Source: Aeromicrobium sp. (GTDB lineage Bacteria > Actinomycetota > Actinomycetes > Propionibacteriales > Nocardioidaceae). Taken from it: a stretch of DNA of 36,673 nt. The notes beneath the pieces were generated by a model. That model did no database searches. It was given only the letters and a program-made list of their open reading frames with translations, and was not told where the DNA came from. The translations under genes were made by a program, and so were the position numbers. Shown in pieces: positions 4,686-36,673 of the stretch. Within the stretch, counting starts at the first letter, position 1. Each line of letters opens with the position of its first letter. The stretch covers positions 1 through 36,673 of the forward strand of contig JACMOZ010000174.1 in the NCBI GenBank assembly GCA_014377785.1, in the 5' to 3' direction.

Positions 4686-4733
4686 GTCGTTGTCAGGTTG
4701 TGTCCACAGGCTGGGTTCAGCTACTGGCTGTGA

Positions 4734-5447
4734 ATGCGGGCAACCGGGCAGTCTGAGACCGTGCTCCCGTTCAGTGTTGCTGCTGCCGACCTCATCATTG
4801 GTGCCTCCTGTGCGGGATGCGGCCGACCGGCGATCACGCTGTGCGCCTCATGCGCAGGCATGCTCACACCACAACCGCGTGTCGCATGGCCTCGCCCAAC
4901 TCCACAAATTCTGTGCCAACCGTCGTTGATCGAGCCGATCGCCTCCGGCATCCACGAGGGCCCGCTCAGGGCGGTGCTCGCACAGTTCAAGGAAGAGGGC
5001 CAGTTCGGCCTTGTACGCGTCCTTGGCCACTTCCTTGCCTCATCGGTGTGCTTCGCGGCACCGGCGGACCGCCCCGTCGTGTTGGTCCCCATACCCTCTA
5101 CGCGCGTGACACGGATGCGCAGGGGACAAGACACCATTGGCGACCTGAGCCGGGCAGCCGCCAAGGCCGTGCGGTCCATCGGGATCGACTGCACTGTCGG
5201 CTCGCCGCTGATCCATGCGCGCCGGGTTGCGGACCAGTCCGGGCTCTCCGCCCACGACCGCTCACTGAATATGTCGGGCGCGTTGAGGATGAGATCGGTC
5301 GCCGGTCTCGGTGGTCGCAGCATCATCGTCGTCGACGACATTCTGACGACCGGAGCGACCGTCGCCGAGGCCGTGAGGGTGCTCACCGAATCTGGATTGC
5401 GACCAGCATCGATTGCTGTGATCGCGGCAACCGCCCGCCATCGGTGA
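4734..5447 (+). CDS. ComF-family phosphoribosyltransferase-like protein
   Basis: A 237-residue protein of the ComF/GntX group. An N-terminal four-cysteine motif (C26-x2-C29 and C37-x2-C40) is a likely zinc ribbon. A type I phosphoribosyltransferase domain follows, with the PRPP-binding signature IIVVDDILTTGATVAEA near residues 195-210. ComF proteins accompany DNA uptake machines in competent bacteria. In actinobacteria the gene sits routinely between lpqB and hpf with no proven role, and the substrate is unknown. The start is uncertain: the ATG at 4734 has no good ribosome-binding site, and a GTG at 4761 would remove nine residues and start the protein as MLPFSVAA. It lies in the mtrA-mtrB-lpqB direction and may be read through. 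Confidence 0.85.
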   Translation: MRATGQSETVLPFSVAAADLIIGASCAGCGRPAITLCASCAGMLTPQPRVAWPRPTPQILCQPSLIEPIASGIHEGPLRAVLAQFKEEGQFGLVRVLGHFLASSVCFAAPADRPVVLVPIPSTRVTRMRRGQDTIGDLSRAAAKAVRSIGIDCTVGSPLIHARRVADQSGLSAHDRSLNMSGALRMRSVAGLGGRSIIVVDDILTTGATVAEAVRVLTESGLRPASIAVIAATARHR

Positions 5448-5475
5448 GGCAACCGGGCAACATTTCGGTGAGTCA

Positions 5476-5504
5476 TGGAAAAAAGTCCCTGGGGGGGCTA
5501 CCGT
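5476..5504 (+). promoter_or_regulatory. Putative promoter of hpf
   Basis: TGGAAA (5476-5481), a 17-nt spacer and TACCGT (5499-5504) form a weak sigma-70-like pair ahead of hpf. This would give a leader of about 30 nt containing the Shine-Dalgarno sequence. The spacer includes a run of seven Gs. The -35 matches the consensus at only four of six positions. Confidence 0.35.
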
Positions 5505-5530
5505 CAGAGATACGTAGTGATGCGCCGACG

Positions 5531-5537
5531 AGGAGGT
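5531..5537 (+). promoter_or_regulatory. Ribosome-binding site deciding the hpf start
   Basis: AGGAGGT lies just upstream of the ATG at 5541. It selects this ATG over the upstream in-frame ATGs at 5475 and 5520, which would add residues not expected for the family. Confidence 0.75.
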
Positions 5538-5540
5538 CCC

Positions 5541-6182
5541 ATGGAAATTGTGGTCAAGGGTCGGAACAGTGAAATCTCCGATCAGTTCAGGGAGCATGTG
5601 CACGAAAAGTTGCTCCGCATCGAGAAGTATGACCAGCGCCAGAAGATCCACCGTGTTGAGGTGGAGGTCACCCACGAGAAGAACCCGCGCCAGCATGATC
5701 GCGCGGCCCGAGTGGAAATGACGCTGAGGTCCCGTGGGCCGGCAGTCCGCGCGGAAGCCTCCTCAACCGATCAGCACTCCGCGCTCGATGCTGCGATGGA
5801 CAAACTGGAATCGCGATTGCGCAAAGCCGTTGACCGGTTGCGCGTCCATCATGGCAACCGCACGCCTCAATCGGTGTCCGCGGCAATAGGTGATGTCGGC
5901 CAAGGCGATGCAGACTCTTCGGAGGTCGATGGGTTGCTTGCACGCGGCGCGCTTGCCGACAATGCAGGACCGGTCGACATTGTCGGCGACGGACCGCTCG
6001 TTGTTCGTGAAAAGATCCACGAAGCACAGCCCATGACGCTTGACCAGGCGCTTTATGCAATGGAAATGGTCGGCCATGATTTCTACCTGTTCGTGGACAA
6101 GGACTCTATGAAGCCCAGCGTGATTTACTTGCGCAAAGGCTATGACTACGGAGTCATTCACCTCGACGTCAGAGAAGGGTAG
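5541..6182 (+). CDS. hpf: Ribosome hibernation promoting factor, long form
   Basis: Long-form HPF (S30AE/YfiA family), 213 residues from the chosen start, which is supported by the AGGAGGT site. The N-terminal domain (about 1-100, starting MEIVVKGRN) binds the 30S decoding region. A low-complexity linker follows (about 105-155), then the C-terminal dimerisation domain (about 155-213, VVREKIHEAQPMTLDQAL...YLRKGYDYGVIHLDV). In stationary phase long HPF links two 70S ribosomes into inactive 100S dimers through this C-terminal domain. The position between a comF-like gene and secA is the usual actinobacterial one. The next gene starts 56 nt downstream after an inverted repeat. Confidence 0.94.
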   Translation: MEIVVKGRNSEISDQFREHVHEKLLRIEKYDQRQKIHRVEVEVTHEKNPRQHDRAARVEMTLRSRGPAVRAEASSTDQHSALDAAMDKLESRLRKAVDRLRVHHGNRTPQSVSAAIGDVGQGDADSSEVDGLLARGALADNAGPVDIVGDGPLVVREKIHEAQPMTLDQALYAMEMVGHDFYLFVDKDSMKPSVIYLRKGYDYGVIHLDVREG

Positions 6183-6198
6183 GCGTCACACACCGCAG

Positions 6199-6216
6199 CC
6201 GACACTGATGTGTCGG
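6199..6216. repeat. 18-bp inverted repeat upstream of the response regulator gene
   Basis: CCGACAC (6199-6205), a TGAT spacer and GTGTCGG (6210-6216) form perfect 7-bp arms between hpf and the next gene. It ends 10 nt before a candidate -10 element, so it could be an operator in the -35 zone. It could also be a terminator-like hairpin behind hpf, but no T-tract follows. Confidence 0.6.
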
Positions 6217-6226
6217 TGCGACGTGA

Positions 6227-6232
6227 CATTAT
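6227..6232 (+). promoter_or_regulatory. Candidate -10 element of a leaderless transcript
   Basis: CATTAT is followed by exactly six nucleotides and then the GTG start at 6239. There is no Shine-Dalgarno sequence in the gap. Transcription starting at the usual distance would begin at or next to the start codon. The first base departs from the TANNNT consensus. Confidence 0.45.
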
Positions 6233-6238
6233 CAGGCC

Positions 6239-6901
6239 GTGCCTACAAACGAGGAACGAATTCGGGTGCTTCTGGTCGACGACCAGGAGTTGTTTCGTCG
6301 CGGAGTCAAAATGATGCTCGCCTCCGACGGCGGGCTGGACATCGAAGAAGCCGGCAACGGCGACATGGCGCTCAAACTGATCACCGCCAATCCGCCTGAC
6401 GTGGTGCTGCTGGACGTGCGGATGCCCGGTCGGACAGGTGTCGAAATTTGCGCTGCCATCAAGGCGATCTCGCCGACGACTGGCATCATCATGCTTACGG
6501 CCAGTGATGAAGAGTCCGACCTCTATGAGTCGATCAAGAGCGGGGCTTCGGGTTACATCCTCAAGGACGGGTCAACCTACGATCAGGTCGTCGAGGCCGT
6601 CCGCCTGGTCGCTGCGGGCCAGTCCCTGATCAGTCCGTCGATGGCCACCAAATTGTTGGAAGAGTTCGTTCATATGTCCCGGCCACAGGGGCCGGGGACC
6701 TCCCTTACTGTTCGCGAACTCGAAGTTTTGCGCCAGGTTGCCCGCGGCCTCAGCAACAGGGAAATTGCCGCCGAACTGTTCATCAGTGAAAACACCGTCA
6801 AAAACCACATTCGCAACCTTCTCGAAAAGCTCCAGATGAAATCCCGCATGGAAGCTGCGATGTATGCGGTGCGCAGTAACCTCGTCGGAGACGAGTCATG
6901 A
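6239..6901 (+). CDS. NarL/LuxR-type response regulator, no kinase nearby
   Basis: A 220-residue two-domain regulator. The receiver domain (about 8-125) has D14/D15, phosphoacceptor D59 (VVLLDVRMPG), the T in IIMLTAS and K in YILKDG. A LuxR-type helix-turn-helix domain (about 150-215) has the typical LTVRELEVLRQVARGLSNREIA and TVKNHIRNLLEKL segments. It should dimerise and bind DNA when phosphorylated. No histidine kinase lies next to it; MtrB is the only kinase in the window and pairs with MtrA. The GTG start is preferred because a -10-like element lies six nt upstream. Its regulon cannot be told from the sequence. Confidence 0.9.
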   Translation: MPTNEERIRVLLVDDQELFRRGVKMMLASDGGLDIEEAGNGDMALKLITANPPDVVLLDVRMPGRTGVEICAAIKAISPTTGIIMLTASDEESDLYESIKSGASGYILKDGSTYDQVVEAVRLVAAGQSLISPSMATKLLEEFVHMSRPQGPGTSLTVRELEVLRQVARGLSNREIAAELFISENTVKNHIRNLLEKLQMKSRMEAAMYAVRSNLVGDES

Positions 6902-6933
6902 GTGGAGCGTCGGAGACGAGTCATGAGTGGAGC
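6884..6933. repeat. Perfect 25-bp tandem duplication across a stop codon
   Basis: Bases 6884-6908 and 6909-6933 are identical. The first copy carries the last codons and the TGA (6899-6901) of the response regulator gene; the second copy is non-coding and fills the gap before the next gene. The 25-bp unit is not a multiple of three and looks like a recent replication-slippage event. Confidence 0.9.
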
Positions 6934-6948
6934 GGTTGAAGACCTTCG

Positions 6949-8193
6949 GTGAGCATTAGCCAATTGCAGGCCAGGCGCATTGCCCTCGTGGCACAAGGCT
7001 TTGGCAAACGCCGACCGGACGTCGTCGGATCCCGTCATCTGGCCTCGACGATCGCGCGGCTCGGTTTTTTCCAGATCGACTCGGTCAACGTACTCGTTCG
7101 GGCCCACTACATGCCTATGTTCTCCCGGCTCGGCCCCTACGATCGGGAACTCCTGGACCGTGCGTTCGCACGAGCGCCGCGCAGGCTCTTCGAATACTGG
7201 GCGCACGAAGCGGCCCTCGTCGATGTTTCGCTGCATGCGGCGATGCGTTTTCGAATGGAGTCGGGTGCCCGCATGTGGGGCAACATGTCCCAAGTCGCCA
7301 GCGAACGACCCGAACTCGTCGCCCGGGTGCTCCAGGAAGTCCGCGATCGAGGACCGCTCACGGCACGCGAGATCGAGCACGATGTGGTGCGCAGCAGGGA
7401 CAACTGGGGCTGGAACTGGTCAGTCGTCAAGGCCTCCCTCGAGTACCTCTTCTACAAGGGAGAGGTCACCTCGTCACGTCGAAATTCGGCCTTCGAACGG
7501 GTCTATGACCTTCCGGAACGGGTGATTCCGTCGGCCCACCTCGACGCCGAGACCCTGGGCTCCGACGAAGCCCATCTCTCGCTGGTCCGGTTCGCCTCCC
7601 GGGCTCACGGGGTCGCCTCCGAACAATGCCTCCGCGACTACTTTCGACTGTCGCCCGGGCCGACCCACCGGGCTGTGGAGCAGTTGGTTGCCGCCGGCGA
7701 ACTGATCCCCACCCGGGTCGTGGGCTGGCACCGGCAGACTTACCTTCATCCCGAGGCGAAGAGGCCACGATCGGTGCAGGCGCGAGCGCTCCTGAGTCCA
7801 TTCGACCCGTTGGTTTTCGAACGTCATCGCACCGAAAAAATCTTCGATTTCCGTTACCGCATCGAAATCTATGTCCCCGAGGACAAGCGGGTCCATGGCT
7901 ATTACGTTCTTCCGTTCCTGCTCGGTGATCGTCTCGTGGGCCGGGTCGACCTCAAGGCCGACCGTCACGCCGGCGCCCTGCTCGTGAGGAGCGCCTGGGC
8001 CGAGCCCCACGCCCCCGCTCATACGGCTCTTGAATTGGCTGAAGAGCTCCACGAGATGGCTCGTTGGCTTGGACTGGAGACGGTCATACCGCCGGCCAAG
8101 GGAAATATGGCTGGGGAACTCGCCGATGCTTTGGCCGGTCGCCTAGGATATGAAGGCTCACTCTTCCGATCAGGAGTCCTACCCCGTGCCTAA
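6949..8193 (+). CDS. Winged-helix DNA glycosylase-like protein (HTH_42, YcaQ/AlkX group)
   Basis: A 414-residue protein of the HTH_42 (formerly DUF1006) family. The segment [11 protein letters not shown] contains Q42-I43-D44, matching the QxD catalytic motif of E. coli YcaQ/AlkX, a glycosylase that unhooks DNA interstrand crosslinks; the antibiotic-resistance branch (AlkZ) has QxQ instead. Winged-helix blocks follow (for example around 125-200 and 210-260), then a C-terminal beta-rich domain with [10 protein letters not shown] and [13 protein letters not shown], also typical of the family. Activity on crosslinks is an inference from the family. The GTG start at 6949 keeps the conserved N-terminus ([15 protein letters not shown]). 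The 3' end overlaps the secA start by 8 nt, a sign of coupled translation. Confidence 0.85.
8171..8176 (+). promoter_or_regulatory. Ribosome-binding site deciding the secA start
   Basis: CAGGAG lies inside the end of the upstream gene, nine nt before the GTG at 8186. It supports this GTG over the in-frame ATG at 8150, which would add 12 residues ([12 protein letters not shown]) that SecA proteins do not have. Confidence 0.75.
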
Positions 8194-10918
8194 AGTCATC
8201 GACAAGATCCTTCGTATGGGTGAAGGCAAGATCCTTCGCAAACTCGAAGCCATCGCCAAACAAGTCAATGTGCTTGAAGACGAATTTCGAGCCATGAGCG
8301 ACGAGCAACTTCAGGCGATGACGCCGGAGTTCCGTGAACGCCTCGCCGCCGGTGAAACGCTGGACGATCTCATGCCCGAAGCGTTTGCCGCGGTGCGTGA
8401 AGCAGCGAGCCGCGTGCTCGGCCAGCGTCACTTCCACGTCCAGCTCATGGGCGGCGCGGCAATGCACCTGGGCAACATCGCAGAGATGAAAACCGGCGAG
8501 GGCAAGACCCTCGTCGCCACCCTTCCGTGCTACCTCAACGCCTTGTCGGGCAACGGGGTGCATGTTGTCACGGTCAACGATTACCTTGCCAAATATCACG
8601 CCGAGTGGATGGGGCGCGTTTACCATTTCATGGGTATGTCGGTCGGCATGATCTTGCCAAGCATGACGCCGGCCGAACGCCGAGTGTCCTACGCCGCCGA
8701 CATTACCTACGGCACCAACAACGAATTCGGCTTCGACTACCTCCGCGATAACATGGCCGACGAAATCGCCGATTGTGTCCAGCGCGGACACAACTTCGCG
8801 GTCGTCGACGAGGTCGACTCCATCCTCATCGACGAGGCCCGTACGCCGCTTATCATTTCGGGACCGACCGAAGACGACGTCAAATGGTATGGCGAGTTCG
8901 CCAAGATCGTCGAGGCCATGACTATTGACGACCATTATGAGGTCGATGAAAAGAAGCGCACGATCGCCGTCAACGATTTGGGCATCGACAAGGTCGAGGA
9001 CGTCCTCGGCATCGACAATCTCTATGACGCGGTCAACACGTCTCTCATCAGTTTCCTGAACAACGCGATCAAGGCGAAAGAGTTGTTCAAACGCGACAAG
9101 GACTACGTCGTGATGAACGGCGACGTCCTCATCGTCGATGAGCACACCGGTCGTATTCTCGACGGCCGTCGTTACAACGAAGGCTTGCACCAGGCGATCG
9201 AAGCCAAAGAAGGCGTCACCGTGCGTGAGGAATACCAGACCCTCGCCACGATCACGCTGCAGAACTATTTCCGCCTCTACGACACGTTGTCGGGCATGAC
9301 CGGTACGGCGCTCACCGAGGCCTCCGAATTCGACAAGATCTATAAACTCGGCGTCGTGCCGATTCCGACGAACCAGCCGATCGCCCGGCGCGATCAGCCG
9401 GACCTCGTCTACCGCACCGAGCATGCGAAGTTCGATGCCGTCATCGAAGACATCGTGGAGCGCCACGGGCAAGGCCAGCCCATCCTCGTGGGCACGGCGA
9501 GCGTCGAGAAGAGCGAATTGCTCTCCAAGTTGTTGCGCAAGCGCGGCGTTCCGCACGAAGTTCTCAACGCCAAGCAGCATGATCGCGAAGCCTCGATCGT
9601 CGCGATGGCCGGCCACAAGGGCGCGATCACGGTTGCCACCAATATGGCGGGCCGCGGCACCGACATCATGCTCGGCGGAAATGTTGAGTTCCTTGCCGAT
9701 CAGGCACTCCGCGACAAGGGCCTCGACCCGGTGGAGACTTCCGAGGAGTATGAAGCCGCCTGGCCCACGACGCTCAAGGAGATCGAAGCGCAGGTCGCCG
9801 CCGAACACGATGAGGTCGCGCTGGTCGGCGGCCTCGCGGTGATCGGCACGGAACGGCACGAATCGCGTCGCATCGACAACCAGTTGCGTGGTCGTTCTGG
9901 TCGCCAAGGCGATCCGGGCGAAACACGGTTTTATCTTTCGCTTGAAGACGATCTGATGAGACTGTTCAAGGCCGATTGGGTCGACTGGGTCCTCACGACG
10001 ATGAAGATCCCTGACGACGTGCCGATCGAGAACAAGCGCGTCACTGGTGCCATCGCTTCGGCGCAGGCCCAGGTGGAGGCACAGAACTTCGATACCCGCA
10101 AAAACATCCTCAAGTATGACGATGTGATGAGCAGCCAGCGGCAGGTCATTTATGCCGAGCGCCGTCGCGTCCTTGAGGGCGAAGACCTGCACGACTGGGT
10201 CAGCGAGATGATTCCGCAAGTGACCAATGCTTATGTCGTCGGCGCCACCGAAGGCTTCCCCGAGGAGTGGGAACTCGACAAGTTGTGGACGGCCCTCGGC
10301 ACGCTCTATCCGATCGGGTTGACCGCGGAAGGCGTCGAAGCAGAATACGGTGGCCGCTCCGGGCTCACCCGCGAACTCCTTCAGGACGTCATCTCCGAAG
10401 ATGCGCTGGCGGGTTATCGCAATCGCGAGGAGGAGCTCGGATCCGAAATCACTCGCGAGCTCGAGCGCCGCGTCGTCCTCAGCGTCCTTGACCGCAAGTG
10501 GCGCGAGCATCTCTATGAGATGGATTACCTGCGCGAGGGCATCGGCTTGCGGGCCTACTCGCAGCGCGACCCGCTGGTCGAATATCAGCGAGAAGGCTTC
10601 GATCTCTTTAACTCCATGATGGACGCGATCCAGGAAGAGTCCGTGGGATTCCTGTTCAATCTGGAAGTCCAGGTGCAGTCCGAGGAATCCGATGAGTCCG
10701 AGGAATTCGTGCCGCAGATTTCGGCCAAGGGCCTCGAGCACGAAAAGCAGACCAATTTGTCATACTCTTCGCCCAGTTCGGATGGTTCGGGTGAGGTGGA
10801 ACTTTCCAACGAAGCCGAGGATCCCGAAGAGCAAGCCAAGCAGCGCCAAGTCAACATCAAGTCGAAGTCACGCCAGAAGTCGAAGGCCCAGCGTCAGTCC
10901 CGCAAAAGGAACCGTTAG
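8186..10918 (+). CDS. secA: SecA, preprotein translocase ATPase
   Basis: Motor ATPase of the Sec pathway, 910 residues from the GTG start. It drives unfolded preproteins through SecYEG at the cytoplasmic membrane. The N-terminus ([20 protein letters not shown]) is classic for actinobacterial SecA1. Visible are the Walker A motif MKTGEGKT with K107, Walker [19 protein letters not shown], the preprotein-binding domain (about 220-360), motif [10 protein letters not shown], the [13 protein letters not shown] block, and the helical scaffold and wing. The last 70 residues are acidic, then strongly basic ([21 protein letters not shown]); the cysteine-rich SEC-C zinc tail of E. coli SecA is absent, as in mycobacterial SecA1. 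The stop touches the end of the convergent gene with no gap. Confidence 0.97.
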
Positions 10919-11407
10919 TCAGGCCCAGGTGAGTGCGGTGCATCGCCATTGGCGGACTCCGCGGCTGTTGGACTGCAATTCGAGTCGGACGGCCAAGGCG
11001 CGCGATCGTCCGCCTTGGGCCATCCGTGCGGCGATCTCGGCTGTCGTCTCGGTGACCATGGACACGTGGACCGACACGATTCGCGAACCGGCATTTATGT
11101 GAAGTCGTTGCGGCGCTCGTGCATGCGCCGCGAGTCGCAACTGAAGTTGCTCGTAGACGTCGGGAGACATCCAGACCCCCAGTTGTCTGACCGGTCGTTC
11201 ACCGGTAAGCACCTCGACGAGAACCTGCATGAAATGCGCGGCCCGCTCCTGAAGCGGATTGCGCGAAGGGCCGCTTGCCGGAATGGGCGCCAGAGTGAGT
11301 TGGGCGAACCCCGCGAGCGGTAAAGGCACTTGTTCGGGAGCCGAGGTCGAGAGCCCGAATCGTGGCTCGGGAGCGGTTCGGACCAAAAGCGACGTCGCAG
11401 TTTTCAT
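10919..11407 (-). CDS. Rv3235-family protein of unknown function
   Basis: A 162-residue protein of the Rv3235 family, found near secA throughout actinobacteria. The conserved part is about residues 50-162: AAHFMQVLVEVLTGERPVRQLGVWMSPDVYEQL, a beta-type stretch IVSVHVSMVTETTAEIAARMAQGGRSRALAVRLE, and the end WRCTALTWA. There is no signal peptide or membrane segment; the first 45 residues are proline- and alanine-rich and probably unstructured. No enzyme motif is recognisable. Its ATG overlaps the stop of the LysM gene upstream (ATGA), so the two proteins are made from one message and probably act together. The biochemical role is unknown. Confidence 0.8.
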   Translation of the reverse strand: MKTATSLLVRTAPEPRFGLSTSAPEQVPLPLAGFAQLTLAPIPASGPSRNPLQERAAHFMQVLVEVLTGERPVRQLGVWMSPDVYEQLQLRLAAHARAPQRLHINAGSRIVSVHVSMVTETTAEIAARMAQGGRSRALAVRLELQSNSRGVRQWRCTALTWA

Positions 11408-12039
11408 GGGGATTCCTTCGCAGGCTGAGTGAGTTGTTGGCCGGGGAAGATCAAATCGGGTTCAGGACCGATGAGTGCTCGATTCGCGCCGTACCAGCCT
11501 TCGACGGCGACGCTTATCTCCGAAGGGCTTGCTTCGGAACCGAGGTGACGGGAAGCTATGGACCACAATGTGTCCCCACGATTGACCTGAACGAGGAGAT
11601 GACGAGCCGCTGCCACAGACGCTGCGGCAGCCTCGCCACCGAGCGGGCGATCGGGAAGTCGAAGACCGTCGAGGCTTCGACTGGTCACGCTGCGCTCGGG
11701 AGCTTCCGCGCCGCGGCCAGTGTCGCTGACACCGGCGGCGGGACCGATGGCGAGGGCGCCGGCGGCGCCGAGGAACAACGCGCGCCGAAGGAAACTCGGT
11801 GTGATGAGGTGTGCGAGGACGTCGATCGCGGCGGTTCTGTCGGCGGCGAAGGTGAGCGTCATACAGGCAAGCGACCACGTGCTCAGGGCGACAAGGAGAA
11901 GCGTCACGGCGGCGACCAGCGAGCGGTTGAAGTCGAGGTCGTTGAGGTCGCGAGCTGCCGCGGCTGAGCCCGGACCCAGTGTCAGGAGACTGAACGCGGA
12001 GACGGCGGCAACGCCATAACCGGTCGACGACAATCGCAT
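11404..12039 (-). CDS. LysM-domain membrane protein
   Basis: A 211-residue protein. Hydrophobic segments lie at about 8-28, 40-62 and 85-105, followed by a flexible stretch and a C-terminal LysM domain (about 148-205: VQVNRGDTLWSIASRHLG...IGPEPDLIFPGQQL). LysM domains bind the glycan part of peptidoglycan, so the C-terminus is expected outside the membrane. No hydrolase domain is present, so it is more likely a wall-anchored scaffold than an enzyme. It is the first gene of a minus-strand pair with the Rv3235-like gene, coupled by ATGA. AGCGGGGA just upstream of the ATG can serve as ribosome-binding site. Three 10-bp direct repeats lie in its promoter region. Confidence 0.85.
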   Translation of the reverse strand: MRLSSTGYGVAAVSAFSLLTLGPGSAAAARDLNDLDFNRSLVAAVTLLLVALSTWSLACMTLTFAADRTAAIDVLAHLITPSFLRRALFLGAAGALAIGPAAGVSDTGRGAEAPERSVTSRSLDGLRLPDRPLGGEAAAASVAAARHLLVQVNRGDTLWSIASRHLGSEASPSEISVAVEGWYGANRALIGPEPDLIFPGQQLTQPAKESP

Positions 12040-12050
12040 AATTCCCCGCT

Positions 12051-12080
12051 TCGTTTAAATACGTTCAAGAACGTTTGATT
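12051..12080. repeat. Three 10-bp direct repeats in a divergent promoter region
   Basis: TCGTTTAAAT, ACGTTCAAGA and ACGTTTGATT stand head to tail with CGTT at exactly 10-bp spacing (12052, 12062, 12072). The middle and right units also form the palindrome ACGTTC-AA-GAACGT (12061-12074). The array lies 12-41 bp upstream of the LysM gene and about 65 bp ahead of the divergent gene at 12146. One-turn spacing places all copies on one face of the helix, as expected for a cooperatively bound regulator. Confidence 0.6.
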
Positions 12081-12111
12081 ACAGTGAAAGACATTTGCGT
12101 ACAACTGTCAA
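12078..12111 (-). promoter_or_regulatory. Possible promoter of the LysM/Rv3235 pair
   Basis: On the minus strand a perfect TTGACA (12111-12106) is followed by TGTAAT (12083-12078). The spacer is 22 nt, longer than the usual 16-19, so only one of the two elements may be genuine. If used, the start point would fall inside the 10-bp direct repeats. Confidence 0.35.
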
Positions 12112-12132
12112 CGCGTTTTCCACACTAAGGGG

Positions 12133-12138
12133 TAGCCT
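12133..12138 (+). promoter_or_regulatory. -10 element of a probable leaderless transcript
   Basis: TAGCCT (TANNNT) is followed by seven nt and the ATG at 12146, placing the expected transcription start on the A of the start codon. No Shine-Dalgarno sequence is at a usable distance. Confidence 0.55.
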
Positions 12139-12145
12139 GCCCGTT

Positions 12146-12649
12146 ATGCGGTGGGAAAAATTGTTTGCCGATCTCGAAGGAATCGTCGGTGACGAAGCGT
12201 TGACCGAAAGGGATGCGCTGGTCACCGAGCTCCGGGACGGAGAGCGGGCCGCCACGCGCTGGCAACAACTGGCCGGTGGCGGAGTGTCACTGGAGGTTGC
12301 CGGTGTCGGCCGCATCGACGGCACGGTCCAGTCGGGCAATGATCAGGTCATACATGTGCTCACTGATCGCGCCCACATGCTAGTCAATCCGGTCGCCCTG
12401 ATGGCAGTCCTGGGCGCATCGCAACGCGCGGAAAAACCGACGGTAGTTTCGTCGAAACTGGGCTGGCCGTATGTGTTCCGGTTGCTTCAGCGTGATCAGG
12501 ATCGGGTGCAGGTCTGTCGCACGGACTCCACGTCGAGGGCCGGCAGGGTTGTGCTCGTCGGTGCAGATTTCGTGCAGATCCGTGATGAAGCGGGCAACGC
12601 TCCGATGATTCCGTATTCAGCGATCGCGGTGGTCAGCTGTTCGCGTTGA
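12146..12649 (+). CDS. Conserved actinobacterial protein of unknown function
   Basis: A 167-residue soluble protein starting MRWEKLFADLEGIV, an N-terminus I associate with a widespread uncharacterised actinobacterial family. It has no signal peptide or membrane segment. After a helical first 45 residues it is mainly beta-type (about 50-80 VSLEVAGVGRIDGTV; about 135-165 RVVLVGADFVQIRD...IPYSAIAVVSC), which suggests two small barrel-like folds; no catalytic motif is seen. The ATG at 12146 is chosen over the ATG at 12095 because of the family start and the -10 element seven nt upstream. Its 3' end overlaps the convergent HTH gene by 17 nt, so the two could interfere at the transcript level. Function unknown. 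Confidence 0.75.
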   Translation: MRWEKLFADLEGIVGDEALTERDALVTELRDGERAATRWQQLAGGGVSLEVAGVGRIDGTVQSGNDQVIHVLTDRAHMLVNPVALMAVLGASQRAEKPTVVSSKLGWPYVFRLLQRDQDRVQVCRTDSTSRAGRVVLVGADFVQIRDEAGNAPMIPYSAIAVVSCSR

Positions 12650-12893
12650 TGTCTTCGGATGGTTCGGATTCGTCGCTCGGTTCGAGGTCGGCGAGGGACC
12701 GATCGGTGCGGGCATACTGGCGAGCGATGTAACCCTCGAGTTCGCTGTTTTCGATCCGCCACTGGCCGCGTCCGCCGATCTGGATGCCGCGGAGATCGCC
12801 CCCCCGAACGAGCGCATAAACCTGTCGCACCGTCACATTCAGGACCTCGGCGACATCGGCCAACGTGAGGAATCGGGGCTTGGTGGGAGGCAT
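12633..12893 (-). CDS. Small excisionase-like helix-turn-helix DNA-binding protein
   Basis: An 86-residue protein with a single MerR/excisionase-type HTH (HTH_17) at about residues 7-58: FLTLADVAEVLNVTVRQVYALVRGGDLRGIQIGGRGQWRIENSELEGYI. The winged helix is followed by a 25-residue acidic tail (DLEPSDESEPSEDINANS). Such proteins bind short direct or inverted DNA repeats and act as regulators (BldC-like) or as phage excisionases; no integrase or phage gene is nearby, so a chromosomal regulator is more likely. It is divergent from the SAF/CpaE genes and only 12 bp from a 19-bp palindrome, so autoregulation and control of the neighbouring Tad-type genes are plausible. It overlaps the convergent upstream gene by 17 nt. 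Confidence 0.8.
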   Translation of the reverse strand: MPPTKPRFLTLADVAEVLNVTVRQVYALVRGGDLRGIQIGGRGQWRIENSELEGYIARQYARTDRSLADLEPSDESEPSEDINANS

Positions 12894-12905
12894 ATTCCTA
12901 GTTTC

Positions 12906-12924
12906 GCATGACCCGGTGTCATGC
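12906..12924. promoter_or_regulatory. 19-bp perfect-arm palindrome upstream of the HTH gene, candidate operator
   Basis: GCATGAC (12906-12912), spacer CCGGT and GTCATGC (12918-12924) form perfect 7-bp arms. It lies 13-31 bp ahead of the minus-strand HTH gene and about 150 bp ahead of the plus-strand SAF gene, where a dimeric regulator could block the HTH promoter. Confidence 0.5.
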
Positions 12925-13072
12925 CGGCGGGGACTGTCGCTGCCTGTGGAAAACGGGACAGGGGCTGGACGAATCGGCAAATCTATAGGTGAATACTTCT
13001 TATGAGTATCTGGTGGGGGCCTGATTTTTCGGTGCGGATCGTGAACGGCGGGGCCTTGACCGGCCGGACGCG
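12925..13072. other. Divergent intergenic region between the HTH and SAF genes
   Basis: There is no coding sequence. An AT-richer patch near 12980-13010 has TATAGG and a weak inverted repeat ATACT-N7-AGTAT (12993-13009), the most likely promoter zone for the SAF/CpaE genes. No convincing -35/-10 pair and no strong ribosome-binding site before 13073 were seen. Confidence 0.4.
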
Positions 13073-13702
13073 ATGAGGACGGCGCAGCGTGTAGCCGTCC
13101 ATCCGTGGCGTGATCCGCGTCTTCTCCTCGGCATCATGCTGGTCTTGCTGTCCACCGTCGTGGGAGCAAAAGTGTTTGCCGCGCGCGACGACACCGTCGC
13201 CTATTGGTCGGTTCGAACCTCGGTGGCCGCCGGCGATGAGGTCAAGCGTGAAGACCTGATGACGACCAGGGTGCGGTTGGGTTCTGTTGCGAGCGACTAC
13301 TACGTGCGTACCGATGACGAGTTTCCCGCCGGGATCAGTGAACTTTCATGGGCCCGGGACATCAGCGCCGGCGCACTCCTGGACAAGTCCGCCCTCGTCG
13401 TCGACGACGAGCAGTCTGCTGGTGAACTCCCGCTCAATGTCGCGAACGGCTCCTTTCCGCTCGATCTGCGCAGCGGAGACACTGTCGATGTATGGGTGGG
13501 CCCAGGCCCCGGCCAGCCCACCGAGGGCAAGTCGGTCTTGGTGTTGCAAGCGGCGCGCGTGTTGTCGACTGGTGGCGGCTCCACGGCAATCGGCGGGTCG
13601 CTGGCGCGCACCATTCTCGTTGGGGTCGATGAGGGCGAACTTGCCGGCACGACGTTGAGCGCCATTTCGGCCGGACACGTCACGTTGGTCAGAGTGCCGT
13701 GA
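13073..13702 (+). CDS. SAF-domain protein, CpaB-like pilus accessory
   Basis: A 209-residue protein with one membrane segment near the N-terminus (about 17-36, LLLGIMLVLLSTVVGAKVFAA) and an extracytoplasmic SAF domain (about 42-110: YWSVRTSVAAGDEVKREDLMTTRVRL...SWARDISAGALLDKSAL). A C-terminal beta-rich part (about 115-209) has GDTVDVWVGP, as in CpaB/RcpC proteins. In Tad systems CpaB-like proteins support assembly of the secretion channel and may touch the wall or pilus. The stop overlaps the GTG of the CpaE-like gene (GTGA), so the two are coupled. The ATG at 13073 has no good Shine-Dalgarno sequence. Confidence 0.8.
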   Translation: MRTAQRVAVHPWRDPRLLLGIMLVLLSTVVGAKVFAARDDTVAYWSVRTSVAAGDEVKREDLMTTRVRLGSVASDYYVRTDDEFPAGISELSWARDISAGALLDKSALVVDDEQSAGELPLNVANGSFPLDLRSGDTVDVWVGPGPGQPTEGKSVLVLQAARVLSTGGGSTAIGGSLARTILVGVDEGELAGTTLSAISAGHVTLVRVP

Positions 13703-14874
13703 GGGAAGTCCTGATCGCAGCCGGGGGAGCGGGATGGGAGTCCGCGGCCCTGACATTTCTGGAATCGTCGCGCGACTTCACACTGGCACGACGTTGCGTC
13801 GATGTCGCTGATCTCCTCGCGGCGGCGCAAACCGGCGACGCTGTTGCTGCACTGATTTCGCCGGACGCCCCCGGTTTCGATGCCGACACCGTCTATCGGC
13901 TCGTCCGGGCAGGCGTTCACCCGGTCGCAGTTGAGGCCGACAGCGCCCGCTGTACGGCCCTCGGCATCGCGACCCGCCTTGAAGTCGGCGAACTCGACGC
14001 GCTGGCCGGACACCTTCCGCGCCGGTCTTCGACCGGGGTTGAGGAGGACGTGGCTCACGGAAAGGGCCGCCTCGTCGCCGTATGGGGCCCGACCGGTGCG
14101 CCAGGACGCAGCACCGTCGCACTGGGAATCGCAGCGGCATGCGCCGAACGCGGTATCGGCACGATTCTGGCGGACGCCGATCCCTATGGCGGTACAATCG
14201 CACAGATGCTCGGGGTCCTCGACGAAGTCAGCGGACTCCTCGCCGCCAGCCGCGCCGCCAACAACGGGAGGGCGGCAGAGACGGCCGAACACCTCTATGG
14301 CATCAACGGCAGCCTGTCCATCCTCACTGGTCTCCCGCGGCCCGATCTCTGGGCGCAGGTGCGCGCCGGTGCGGCCGAACTCGTCTTGCAGCAATTGCGC
14401 CACGATGCTGCCATCAGCGTGATCGATTGCGGGTTTTGCCTCGAACAGCCAGAGAGTTTCGATTCGGGGGCTCCGCGACGCAACCAGCTGACCCTGCAAT
14501 CGCTCGAGGCCGCTGACGACGTCATCGCCGTCGGTCGGGCAGATCCGGTCGGTCTCGCCCGACTGGTGCGGGGACTTCACGACCTGGAAGCGCTCATGCC
14601 CTCGGCCGAGATCGCCGTCGTGATCAACATGACCCGGCAGACGATCGGTTGGTCCGATACCGAGATCGGTGCAACAGTCGAACGCCTCACCGGCCGGCGG
14701 CCTGTCGCCTTCCTGCCGCTGGATCAGGCAGCCGTCGATGCCGCCCTGATCGGCGGTCGATTGCTGAGCGAAGCGAGTCCCGATTCGCGCCTCACAAAGT
14801 CATTCGCCCGCTTGGCCCGCGAGTGGGCGACGGAACATGCCGGTGTTGGCTCAGCGTCGTCGGCCGGCACGTGA
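13699..14874 (+). CDS. CpaE-like MinD/ParA-family ATPase of a Tad system
   Basis: A 391-residue protein with an N-terminal receiver-like region without a clear phosphoacceptor (about 1-115) and a C-terminal MinD/ParA-type domain (about 120-385). The Walker A region reads GPTGAPGRST, with R137 where most P-loops have the invariant lysine; the signature second lysine is also missing. DADPYGG at about residue 155 matches the Walker A' strand, and VIDCGF near 240 is the likely Walker B. Arg in this loop is, from memory, common among actinobacterial CpaE-like proteins, so it may bind nucleotide differently. CpaE proteins localise Tad pili. Here the cpaF-tad genes resume 4.3 kb downstream. Confidence 0.8.
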   Translation: MREVLIAAGGAGWESAALTFLESSRDFTLARRCVDVADLLAAAQTGDAVAALISPDAPGFDADTVYRLVRAGVHPVAVEADSARCTALGIATRLEVGELDALAGHLPRRSSTGVEEDVAHGKGRLVAVWGPTGAPGRSTVALGIAAACAERGIGTILADADPYGGTIAQMLGVLDEVSGLLAASRAANNGRAAETAEHLYGINGSLSILTGLPRPDLWAQVRAGAAELVLQQLRHDAAISVIDCGFCLEQPESFDSGAPRRNQLTLQSLEAADDVIAVGRADPVGLARLVRGLHDLEALMPSAEIAVVINMTRQTIGWSDTEIGATVERLTGRRPVAFLPLDQAAVDAALIGGRLLSEASPDSRLTKSFARLAREWATEHAGVGSASSAGT

Positions 14875-14914
14875 GCGGTGGTACTTTTGGGATCACATAT
14901 CACCCAGGAGCACC

Positions 14915-16315
14915 ATGCAACGGATGAGCCCGCTCGATGCAATGTTCTTGAATCAAGACTGCCCGATGGCTCCGCGCCAGATCGCGTCTCTCGCAATTCT
15001 CGAACCCGGTGAACATCGACTCGACTACGACCGGCTCGTCCAGGTCATCAACGACCGTATCGACATCGTGCCGCGTTATCGGCAAATCGCGCTGAGGGTT
15101 CCGGCCGGGCTCGGCACTCCCCTGTGGATCGATGACGAGGACTTCGATATCTCTCTGCATGTGCGTCGATCGGCGTTGCCGAAGCCGGGGACGATGGCAT
15201 CGTTGCGTGAACTTGTAGGCCGGTTGATCGCCCGCCGGCTCGATCCCGATCGTCCGCTGTGGGAGCTTTACCTTGTAGAGGGATTGAGTGCCGGCCGGGT
15301 CGCATTGCTGTTCAAATCCCATCAGGCCCTCGTCGACGGCTCCGAAACCATCGACCTCGCCCAAGTCCTCCTTGAGGAGACCGCCCACGAACGCGACATT
15401 CCGCACGAAGACTGGAATCCGCGCCCCGAACCCGGCGCGGCGGCACTCATCGTCAGTACCGTCAACAAAAATCTGCGTCGCCCGGTCGAGGGACTTCGGA
15501 TCGCCGAGATGAACCTTGGCCGTATAGCGGCCCGGCTTCCGGGGCTGGCTGGCAGGAAGCCTGCGCCGCACGGCATTTTGCTGACCGAACTCAGTCACCA
15601 CCGTCGCTTCGCCTCGCTCGAAACCAAACTCGACGACTACCGCATGGTGCGCGATGAACACGGCGGTACCGTCAACGATGTCATCCTGGCCACGATCGCC
15701 GGCGGTATGCGCGGCTGGATGTTGACGCGTGCTGAGCCCGTCAGTTCGAAAACGCGCTTCCGGGCGATGGTGCCCATGTCGGTCGTTGCCGACGACGGAT
15801 GGCCGACCTCTCTCGGCTCGAAGGTTCGCGGTCATCTGTTGTCCTTACCCGTCGGTGAATCCAATCCGGTTGTGCGTCTGCACCAGGTGTCTTACGCGCT
15901 GAAGGACCACCGAGAGACCGGTTCGGCCGTCGCCGCCAACAAACTTGCCAATCTGCCCGGCTTCGCGACCTCGACTTTCCATGCCGTTGGGGCCCGCGTT
16001 GCCGATGCCGAAAGCGGTCGCGGCCACCAGATCGTCATTACCAACGTCCCCGGCCCGCAAGAGCCGGTCTACATGGCAGGGGCGCGAATGAGCGAGGTCT
16101 ACCCGTGCATACCTCTCAGCGACAACCGGGCGGTGGCAATCGGGGTCACGTCCTACTACGGCAAAGTGTTTTACGGCATCGTTGCCGATCGCGAAGCGGT
16201 GCCCGATGCGGACGTGCTCGCACAATGCATCGACGATGCCCTGGTCGAGATGGTCGAAACGGTTGGCTCTCGTCGCACCCGCGCGCCACGCGGACGCACT
16301 CGGCCCACGCAATGA
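14915..16315 (+). CDS. WS/DGAT-type acyltransferase with altered catalytic motif
   Basis: A 466-residue member of the wax ester synthase/acyl-CoA:diacylglycerol acyltransferase family (N-terminus MSPLDAMFLNQD, later GTVNDVILATIAGGMRGW, and the C-terminal ITNVPGPQEPVYMAGARM). These enzymes esterify fatty alcohols or diacylglycerol with acyl-CoA to make storage lipids. The catalytic HHxxxDG motif here reads H136-Q137-A-L-V-D141-G142: the second His, the general base in characterised enzymes, is Gln. It may be inactive, use another base, or do a different reaction. CAGGAG four nt before the ATG at 14915 supports the start; ATG 14924 is an alternative. The stop overlaps the next gene (ATGA). Confidence 0.88.
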   Translation: MQRMSPLDAMFLNQDCPMAPRQIASLAILEPGEHRLDYDRLVQVINDRIDIVPRYRQIALRVPAGLGTPLWIDDEDFDISLHVRRSALPKPGTMASLRELVGRLIARRLDPDRPLWELYLVEGLSAGRVALLFKSHQALVDGSETIDLAQVLLEETAHERDIPHEDWNPRPEPGAAALIVSTVNKNLRRPVEGLRIAEMNLGRIAARLPGLAGRKPAPHGILLTELSHHRRFASLETKLDDYRMVRDEHGGTVNDVILATIAGGMRGWMLTRAEPVSSKTRFRAMVPMSVVADDGWPTSLGSKVRGHLLSLPVGESNPVVRLHQVSYALKDHRETGSAVAANKLANLPGFATSTFHAVGARVADAESGRGHQIVITNVPGPQEPVYMAGARMSEVYPCIPLSDNRAVAIGVTSYYGKVFYGIVADREAVPDADVLAQCIDDALVEMVETVGSRRTRAPRGRTRPTQ

Positions 16316-29251: not shown

Positions 29252-30031
29252 TCACGACTGGCAACGCGGACACCACGAGGTGATGCGCATCTGGGTTGGT
29301 TTGGCGCCGAGCTGACCGGATCGGATCGCCGTGCCGCAGCGTCGGCAGGGCCGGCCCCTCCGCGAGAACACCCAGTGCATGCGGCCCGGCCTAGTGTCGC
29401 CGGTCATCGTACGCTGGACCCGGTCGCGGTTGGCCAGGATCATCCGCCGGCCACGATCGAGGACCCGCGCAAGATCGGGAATCTCCCCGACCGGCCGTGT
29501 GGGCAGTATGCCGCTTAGGAAACACAACTCGTTGACGTATTCGTTGCCGAAGCCGGCCAGGTTGCGCTGATCATGGAGCGCCAGAAAGATCGGCCGCGCC
29601 GGATCCCGGTTGAGCCGGCACAGCGCCTTGACGGCATCCCAGTCGGGACCCAGCAGGTCGGGGCCGAGATGGCCGACTGCGTCGTCCTCGCCATCGTAGT
29701 CGAGGACTTCCATGACTCCGAGTGAGAAGCCGACGGCCTGATGCTCCGCATTTTCCAGTACGACGCGGGCTTCAAATGTCGGTCGCCGCCAGCGCTCGTC
29801 GAGGATGTAGATGTGCCACGCCCCTTCCATCTTCAGATGGGTATGGATGCTGGAGTCGCCGGCTCTGATCAGCAGGTGTTTACCCCGGCTGACGACCTCG
29901 TCGACGCTCAGGCCGCGGAGGTCATAGGTTGCGAACGCAGGGACGCGGAAATCCGTGCGGGTGAGGACCTGTCCCGCGAGTGCCTCGTGCAGATGGTGCG
30001 CGGTCCGCCATACGGTGTCTCCCTCAGGCAC
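29252..30031 (-). CDS. nei: Fpg/Nei-family DNA glycosylase (Nei2-like)
   Basis: A 259-residue endonuclease VIII-type glycosylase and AP lyase that removes oxidised bases. The start is GTG at 30031 so that the mature N-terminus has P2-E3 (MPEGDTVWRTAHHL), the catalytic Schiff-base and general-acid residues; K51 (SRGKHLLIR) is the conserved lysine. The helix-two-turn-helix and a four-cysteine zinc finger at the C-terminus (CRRCGTAIRSGQL...WCPRCQ) are intact. It starts 8 nt inside the end of lhr and is its operon partner, the order of mycobacterial lhr/nei2. Whether it prefers oxidised pyrimidines is inferred from the family. Confidence 0.92.
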   Translation of the reverse strand: MPEGDTVWRTAHHLHEALAGQVLTRTDFRVPAFATYDLRGLSVDEVVSRGKHLLIRAGDSSIHTHLKMEGAWHIYILDERWRRPTFEARVVLENAEHQAVGFSLGVMEVLDYDGEDDAVGHLGPDLLGPDWDAVKALCRLNRDPARPIFLALHDQRNLAGFGNEYVNELCFLSGILPTRPVGEIPDLARVLDRGRRMILANRDRVQRTMTGDTRPGRMHWVFSRRGRPCRRCGTAIRSGQLGAKPTQMRITSWCPRCQS

Positions 30032-36105: not shown

Positions 36106-36476
36106 GGGGCTGAACGGTTTCGACTTTGATCGTTCGGATCAGAAGAAGCGGGTAGAGGATCCAGGGTTATCTCTTTAACGATCTCTGGAAAACTATAAGT
36201 GCCGATTCTAAAAGCACTGACTTCGTTCTTGCTGCTTAAGCAAGACTAAGCGAAGGGCTGGCCTGGGGGCGTCTCCGCTCCAGTCACCGGTCTCATTTAG
36301 GGGACTTGCTTATCTGGCCACGTCGTGGGGCCAGGTTGGGACATTTACGCGACTGAGCCTGTCGACGACGTGTCTGTGCGAGCATCGGGGCTGAGAAAAG
36401 CGTCTAGCAGACTGCACCCGGAGAAGTCCTGATTCAGCATTAGAGGACCGGGGTTCGATTCCCCGCAGCTCCACCA
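36106..36476 (+). ncRNA. ssrA: tmRNA (transfer-messenger RNA)
   Basis: A one-piece tmRNA of about 371 nt. The 5' end GGGGCTGAACGGTTTCGACT is the standard start, and the 3' end shows a T-arm (GGGGTTCGATTCCCC), the acceptor strand CAGCTCC and an encoded ACCA. GGGGCTG pairs with CAGCTCC with one G-U. The tRNA-like part is alanyl in all known tmRNAs. The tag reading frame starts at 36201. With SmpB it rescues stalled ribosomes by trans-translation. The 5' boundary could shift by a base or two; processing by RNase P is expected. The gene follows the MFS gene by 34 bp, and TTGACG/TAGACT upstream (36037-36069) is only a weak promoter candidate. Confidence 0.95.
36201..36239 (+). other. tmRNA tag reading frame
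   Basis: The resume codon GCC is followed by codons for ADSKSTDFVLAA and TAA. The C-terminal LAA fits the recognition end for ClpXP/ClpAP-type degradation; VLAA replaces the more common ALAA. Confidence 0.9.
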
Positions 36477-36520
36477 ACGACAAATCCCCCGACCGTTCTT
36501 TGGTCGGGGGATTTGTCGTT
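36477..36520. terminator. Long inverted repeat after ssrA
   Basis: A perfect stem pairs 36476-36494 with 36502-36520 (19 bp, counting the A of the tmRNA CCA), around a 7-nt loop (GTTCTTT). No T-tract follows, so it is either a terminator of the stem-only type or a barrier to 3' exonucleases. Confidence 0.75.
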
Positions 36521-36576
36521 GATAAAGGCACAGCGAATCGACAGGGCCCCTTCGGCGCGGCGAAGCCGTCGGACCA

Positions 36577-36673
36577 GGGATCCCCGCAGCTCCCGAGCGC
36601 AGCGAGGCGAGGGATCCCCGCAGTTCCCGAGCGCAGCGAGGCGGGGGATCCCGGCAGCTCCCGAGCGCAGCGA
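36577..36673. repeat. 34-bp tandem repeats downstream of ssrA
   Basis: Copies at 36577-36610, 36611-36644 and a third (36645-36673) cut by the window end. The unit starts GGGATCCCCGCAGCTCCCGA and ends GCGCAGCGAGGCGA, with single-base changes among copies. It includes TCCCCGCAGCTCC, which also occurs at the tmRNA 3' end (36460-36472). The total number of copies is unknown. Confidence 0.85.

Follow-up and report, generated by a model that had tools for sequence, protein, structure and literature searches.

A tandem array of short repeats lies behind the tmRNA gene (ssrA) of an Aeromicrobium sp., and each repeat carries a near-copy of the 3' end of that gene. What kind of sequence leaves the end of a tmRNA gene behind the gene itself, several times over? 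The window, the whole stretch of 36,673 nucleotides that was analysed, is a complete contig (G000:C496) from a genome of 519 contigs with 7.25% contamination, and the contig end falls inside the array. A preliminary description had reported 34-bp tandem units running off the window behind ssrA, with a near-copy of the tmRNA 3' end in each, and both observations hold. TRF places the array at 36576-36673 (2.9 copies, 93% match, score 175). TCCCCGCAGCTCC, the last 13 nt of the ssrA 3' end, occurs exactly within ssrA and once in the array (36581-36593), and with one mismatch at 36615-36627 and 36649-36661, which makes one core copy per 34-bp unit. The features at the end of the window are as follows.

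36106..36476, + strand: ssrA (tmRNA), tag ADSKSTDFVLAA (ARAGORN)
36460-36472, + strand: copied core inside ssrA
36475..36521, + strand: long inverted repeat, a terminator-like hairpin directly behind ssrA (self reverse-complement match; folding)
36533..36598, + strand: full unit (covariance models R1 and R2)
36535..36541, + strand: GAATCGA, reverse complement of the ssrA T-loop TCGATTC, where the conserved block starts (sequence; aligned blocks)
36544..36550, + strand: GGGCCCC, conserved left arm of the unit hairpin (alignments)
36551..36575, + strand: variable hairpin stretch GCGGCGAAGCCG, whose stem covaries among relatives (alignment)
36576..36593, + strand: AGGGA and copy 1 of the ssrA 3' end, with the exact 13 nt
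36594..36609, + strand: spacer CGAGCGCAGCGAGGCG
36610..36627, + strand: AGGGA and copy 2, one mismatch, lacking the hairpin part (motif search; weak R1 match at 36602-36666, E 0.34)
36644..36661, + strand: GGGGA and copy 3, one mismatch
36662..36673, + strand: third spacer, cut by the contig end

The number of TCCCCGCAGCTCC matches in the window is not unusual at up to two mismatches (four, against a shuffle mean of 2.30, with four reached in 18 of 100 shuffles). The unusual feature is their position: all four lie at the ssrA end or at most 190 nt behind it, on the ssrA strand. By hand arithmetic, with no tool involved, the chance of one exact 13-mer there is about 2e-5 in such GC-rich DNA. 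The stretch 36474-36593, which includes the terminator-like hairpin, folds with a z of -5.90. A tRNA-Ala(GGC) terminator elsewhere in the same genome (G000:C391:16410-16477) has 23 identical nt in common with the ssrA hairpin, and no unit was seen behind that tRNA gene. The window also holds a perfect 25-bp tandem repeat at 6883-6934 (2.1 copies, TRF). The 34-bp repeat consists of copy, spacer and AGGGA, probably amplified by slippage after the hairpin part was lost, and the array is best seen as the worn end, or slippage-expanded remnant, of a larger unit.

Confinement of the unit to this site in its own genome, raised in the preliminary description, was borne out. No other match was found in the genome for a 23-nt piece of the unit at up to three mismatches, for the longer left half GTCGGANNNGGATCCCNGCAGCTCC, or for covariance model R1 at E <= 1 with 150 candidates scored, and a dispersed repeat within this genome was rejected on that ground. 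A 14-nt piece of the spacer, CGAGCGCAGCGAGG, has one more exact match, on contig C90, in a 12-kb stretch in which no tRNA was detected. A phage or virus source was also rejected: GCAGNTCCCGAGCGCAGCGAG has no match in viral contigs, and the six matches there to GAATCGAGTGGGCCCC, the conserved block of the unit, have no tRNA in the stretch checked. In the genome-contig collection CCCCGCAGNTCCCGAGCGCAGCGAG has no match, and exact GGGAATCGAGTGGGCCCC occurs in 11 stretches, four of which (L221, L224, L226, L231) have no tRNA and were discounted as chance matches. Among 341 Nocardioidaceae genomes GGATCCCNNCAGCTCC gave 39 matches in 34 genomes, not all of them at ssrA, and the backward control gave one. 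In three other Nocardioidaceae genomes a contig (G001:C16, G003:C177 and G024:C221) ends at the ssrA match or within 20 nt of it, similar to the window contig, which ends less than 200 nt from ssrA; repeats or variable islands at this place would break assemblies there.

The arrangement recurs behind ssrA in related genomes. Of 47 Aeromicrobium ssrA loci fetched, 45 were analysed, L148 and L153 having been dropped (no CTCCA end; no tmRNA by ARAGORN). A copy of the locus's own 13-nt ssrA end, with at most one mismatch and on the same strand, lies within 250 nt in 24 of the 45, and a reversed-sequence control gave five matches across 735 kb downstream of the genes, all of them beyond 250 nt. The block GAATCGAGTGGGCCCC sits between the ssrA hairpin and the copy; at up to three mismatches in 48 loci it was found 36 times on the ssrA strand, twice on the opposite strand and never in reversed sequence. 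Within 250 nt, the block is present at 27 of the 45 loci and block and copy together at 22. Both loci of another genus (G008, G030) have copies without the block. In G097 and G098 a full inverted copy of the ssrA end is present as well. At L117 (+47) and L145 (+66) a full inverted ssrA 3' end stands behind the terminator, which gives a single long palindrome made up of gene end, terminator and inverted end.

The unit is not peculiar to ssrA. With model R1 and a cutoff of E <= 0.01, it is detected in 35 of 49 Aeromicrobium genomes. At E <= 0.001, 36 of the 341 Nocardioidaceae genomes are positive, namely 35 Aeromicrobium and the window's genome, and none of 291 genomes in 24 other genera of the family, where 12 candidates were scored per genome and weak matches may be missed. 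The R1 training set included the window's unit, whose E of 2.4e-10 under this model is therefore not independent. Model R2 was built from 10 Aeromicrobium-type tRNA-Gly units, without the window's unit or any ssrA unit; its best match in the window is 36533-36595 (E 0.0014; next-best 29588-29677, E 0.19), and it gives 22 matches in 20 of the 47 Aeromicrobium ssrA loci (797 kb, E <= 0.01). This non-circular result supports a common descent of the unit body across genes. The letters of the window spacer CGAGCGCAGCGAGGCG likewise recur behind the tRNA-Gly core at one Aeromicrobium locus (L217), and close variants occur in other tRNA-Gly units.

In 29 of the 33 non-ssrA unit loci fetched, the gene directly upstream encodes a tRNA: 17 tRNA-Gly(CCC), three tRNA-Gly(TCC), eight tRNA-Ala(TGC) and one tRNA-Val(TAC). 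With ssrA, the unit thus has five host genes. Of the other four loci, L274 lies behind a tRNA-Gly 3' fragment, L283 lies 14.7 kb behind a tRNA-Gly gene, L286 has no tRNA in 20 kb upstream, and L292 also lacks a tRNA directly upstream. At L274/L312 (G072:C1) the tRNA-Gly 3' fragment, which has no 5' part, precedes two units; judged solely by their length and opening residues, the ORFs before it (1191 aa) resemble those of phages, and the place may be the right end of a prophage. The preliminary description had offered a family of dispersed intergenic elements as one origin, and the unit is indeed dispersed in relatives, though not after unrelated genes: it stands behind tRNA and tmRNA genes and carries the local 3' end. 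A dispersed intergenic repeat of the REP/BIME kind, with copies beside unrelated genes, does not agree with these 29 of 33 loci and was rejected.

The unit body is constant and both of its flanks are gene-specific. In 60 of 64 units the copied end matches its own gene best, with four ties (L131, L277, L279, L293) and none lost to another gene. These 64 remain of 78 units parsed; 14 were dropped, seven being tRNA-Ile rows, where the unit is that of the following tRNA-Ala, and seven having no left flank resembling a T-loop complement, a filter that biases the count of T-loop complements (exact own 7-mer in 52 of 64) and not that of copies. The complement is GAATCGA in 29 of 31 ssrA units and 16 of 21 tRNA-Gly(CCC) units, and GACTCGA in six of seven tRNA-Ala units. 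The copy is gene-specific for most variants within one gene as well. An ssrA variant, CCCCG or CCCGG, is matched by the copy in 29 of 31 units (exceptions at L112 and L123), and it changes seven times on the ssrA tree (bootstrap range 6-8), two of these changes being forced by well-supported branches. The tRNA-Ala variants are matched in four of seven units; in the other three (L277, L279, L293) the own-gene match extends to only 8-10 of 13 positions. Dozens of copies elsewhere without the 13-nt core had been named in advance as evidence against an attachment-site origin. Copies without that core do exist, but each has instead the core of the gene behind which it lies, a pattern that speaks for the attachment-site idea.

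We propose, with a confidence only a little better than even, that the unit is a miniature non-coding element inserted site-specifically into tRNA and tmRNA genes at the boundary between T-loop and T-stem, and that the copies are displaced gene ends. The inserted DNA would enter at this boundary and supply a new gene 3' end and a new terminator, which would restore the gene. These would be followed by the T-loop complement, GGGCCCC, the variable hairpin and AGGGA, the last acting as the right half-site. The old gene 3' end would be pushed downstream and appear as the copy, and later insertions, whether more units or cargo islands, would enter at the gene or at an older copy, such that units pile up. 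The unit itself may move by site-specific recombination, with its hairpin and T-loop complement as putative recombinase sites and a recombinase presumably encoded elsewhere or lost. Five gene ends on one body lie beyond ordinary attP x attB exchange, which needs a common core; for this reason the insertion reading is given no more than the confidence stated, and an RNA switch, an attC-like site and duplication are kept as rivals. The absence of a copy within 250 nt at 21 of the 45 Aeromicrobium ssrA loci also counts against insertion, as do the three poorly matched tRNA-Ala units. At one of the relatives, G082, the only ssrA-end copy lies at +4303.

Far copies of this kind occur at four Aeromicrobium ssrA loci, 4.3 kb (G082), 7.8 kb (G018), 10.8 kb (G095) and 16.8 kb (G064) downstream of the gene. 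Together with one tRNA-Gly locus, where 14.7 kb separates tRNA-Gly(CCC) from the unit in G074, they show islands of 4-17 kb between gene and unit or between units. GC content inside the ssrA islands is lower than behind the last copy (0.60 against 0.71 in G082, 0.63 against 0.74 in G095, 0.63 against 0.75 in G018 and 0.62 against 0.69 in G064). The displaced segment of G082 aligns from base 1 behind the ssrA of G095, G074 and G089 (91-93%), relatives that lack an island at that place, the insertion point of G082. That of G064 aligns from base 1 behind the ssrA of G080, G100, G075 and G094 (71-79%), likewise island-free there. Both islands were thus inserted exactly behind the ssrA end. Further, the left 503 bp of the G082 island, which starts at ssrA, are 74% identical to G018 sequence that starts behind copy 1, indicating that a copy served as entry site. 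Among the cargo are restriction-modification genes: G095 has a type I system with an AriA-like ATPase, G018 a type II methyltransferase together with a type IIG enzyme, and G074 a type I system with a protein matching Orf5/HEC-06 models. At least one copy has served as the landing site of an island with restriction-modification genes. In G064 a 4007-aa ORF (4292-16315 in ssrA orientation) takes up most of the 17-kb island.

A displaced 3' fragment and a restored gene, the mark of tRNA and tmRNA islands, are thus present (60 of 64 units; G082 and G064), but the tyrosine integrase expected inside such islands is not found. No PF00589 match occurs in the islands of G018, G064, G095, G082 or G074, the only two such matches in G018 being far from its ssrA locus, and tblastn of 30 ORFs drawn from integrase loci, some of which are frames other than the integrase itself, against 62 loci matched only the positive control. 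A crude motif scan for serine recombinases, run without a positive control, found none; a 93-aa ORF with a resolvase-type helix-turn-helix (HTH_7, E 1.1e-5) lies near the right end of the G064 island. The attachment-site origin put forward in the preliminary description remains the best-supported reading, with copies following the host's ssrA variant, lower-GC islands ending at copies, and one island family that starts at ssrA in one species but in a second species at a copy. The integrase sought with it was not found.

An old terminator would be expected behind the copy, because the copy would be the old gene end. Strong hairpins (z <= -3.5, a threshold chosen after the values were seen) stand there at nine of 55 loci against one of 52 control stretches; the other 46 have none, and the median z of 0.03 is no different from the control. 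By reading, tRNA-Ala in G059 has a terminator behind the copy similar to the new one; in the relative G104 there is one terminator and the copy is lacking. At a tRNA-Ala(TGC) locus in G100 (L303), two terminator-like hairpins stand in tandem with a partial tRNA-Ala end between them and without the unit hairpin body, again by reading.

The unit with its terminator spans about 100-150 bp, and no coding capacity was seen in it. Its hairpin varies in both sequence and length, and it is conserved as structure, not as sequence. In the 35-unit alignment 95.8% of cells are paired, against 85.0% when shuffled and 38-54 in slid versions, and changes on both sides occur in 13 of 20 pairs, including all eight of the variable helix; the outer helix hardly varies and says little on covariation. 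Alignments A1-A4 hold only units with a recognisable block, which favours conservation there. Evidence for the structure is this covariation, since the window's 58-nt unit folded alone shows no stability above shuffles (z 0.48). An Rfam cmscan of three loci (L117, L220, L042) at gathering scores found no family on the unit, RtT included.

Covariation of this kind is unusual for a double-stranded att site and counts against the insertion reading. It speaks for a rival reading, in which the unit would be a structured RNA that forms part of the 3' trailer of precursor tRNAs and tmRNA and lets the precursor switch between a mature-like and an extended fold, tuning maturation. GAATCGA would then pair with the T-loop, and the distal copy would replace the gene's own T-stem and acceptor strand; we consider this reading unlikely. 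T-loop complement and copy both follow the local gene, as one alternative fold would need, and the inverted copy is longer than the T-loop in G097, G098 and several tRNA-Gly units, but at the other ssrA loci, as far as seen, it is degenerate outside the T-loop. Units are also still recognisable 4-17 kb from the gene, behind islands (G082, G095, G064), a strong terminator-like hairpin separates ssrA from the unit in the window, the window's unit by itself folds no better than shuffles, and at E 0.01 no unit is detected in 14 of the 49 Aeromicrobium genomes. If the unit does act as RNA, it would be a control element of tRNA and tmRNA genes of which we found no description in the open-access literature.

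Integron attC sites have R and L boxes, extrahelical bases and a linked IntI. By analogy, a recombinase could recognise the unit in its folded, single-stranded form; the tRNA gene end would then be the entry site and the cargo islands the cassettes, a proposal that we regard as improbable. Conserved boxes do surround a hairpin of variable sequence and length, and islands do end at units, but the island junction is the ssrA terminus (TCCAC) and not AGGGA/TCCC, and the integrase searches above found no tyrosine integrase near the loci. The resemblance is, we presume, one of layout only. Pure tandem duplication or slippage of the gene end with no mobile element, equally improbable for the family, likely accounts for the 34-bp array itself and fits the near-identical units of some arrays (the window, L272, L137), but the same body stands behind five different genes, and tandem units at one locus may have unrelated hairpin stems (L219, L220), which argues that such neighbours are not simple duplicates.

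A bolder reading is tentative and clearly less probable than site-specific insertion: miniature elements that re-tool their ends to the local tRNA or tmRNA gene, combining a constant folded body, an inverted T-loop and a direct 3'-end copy at five genes of one genus. Such a family, if real, would represent one of two things, a novel type of mobile element that takes up the sequence of its target when it inserts, or an RNA switch common to the precursors of tRNAs and tmRNA. A unit that does move would be a very small site-specific element and an example of how one body can pass from one target gene to others.

The tyrT gene of E. coli is also followed by tandem repeats, 178-bp units that reportedly carry the 3' end of tRNA-Tyr. 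These repeats and the rtT RNA (Bosl and Kersten 1991, cited in PMC2965389 and PMC8250186) are similarly structured and in tandem, but concern one gene in enterobacteria, whereas here a common body stands behind five genes in an actinobacterial family. Islands catalogued by Islander (PMC4383910) also have both ends marked by a regenerated gene and a displaced fragment, with integration ascribed in the available text to tyrosine integrases; the unit, by contrast, measures about 100-150 bp with its terminator and showed no coding capacity. Cis-mobilizable elements and accretion, as mentioned in PMC3146451, likewise involve integrase-less islands stacked at one gene end, but a repeated minimal unit with its own conserved fold is seen only here.

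The closest parallel is the ssrA islands of Dehalococcoides (McMurdie 2011, PMC3146451), and the anatomy seen here fits insertion as described there: islands stand in tandem downstream of ssrA, the ssrA 3' end is directly repeated at their bounds, each repeat is preceded by a conserved motif at the point where it departs from ssrA, and insertion is inferred in the T-loop. In the portions of that paper available, 15 of 31 islands lack an integration module and 16 of 31 have a serine recombinase module. The crude motif scan, which had no positive control, picked up no such CcrB-like serine recombinase next to attL; the helix-turn-helix ORF in G064 was all that was seen. The Dehalococcoides repeats differ in being 20 bp long and bounding gene-carrying islands; ssrA alone is treated in those portions, which describe neither a covarying hairpin unit nor copies at several tRNA genes. 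In the open-access literature we found no description of units with this combination of tiny size, covarying hairpin, T-loop complement and one body behind five genes. The usual view of displaced tRNA ends is that they are passive scars; those described here have a conserved and covarying unit attached to them, repeated behind five genes.
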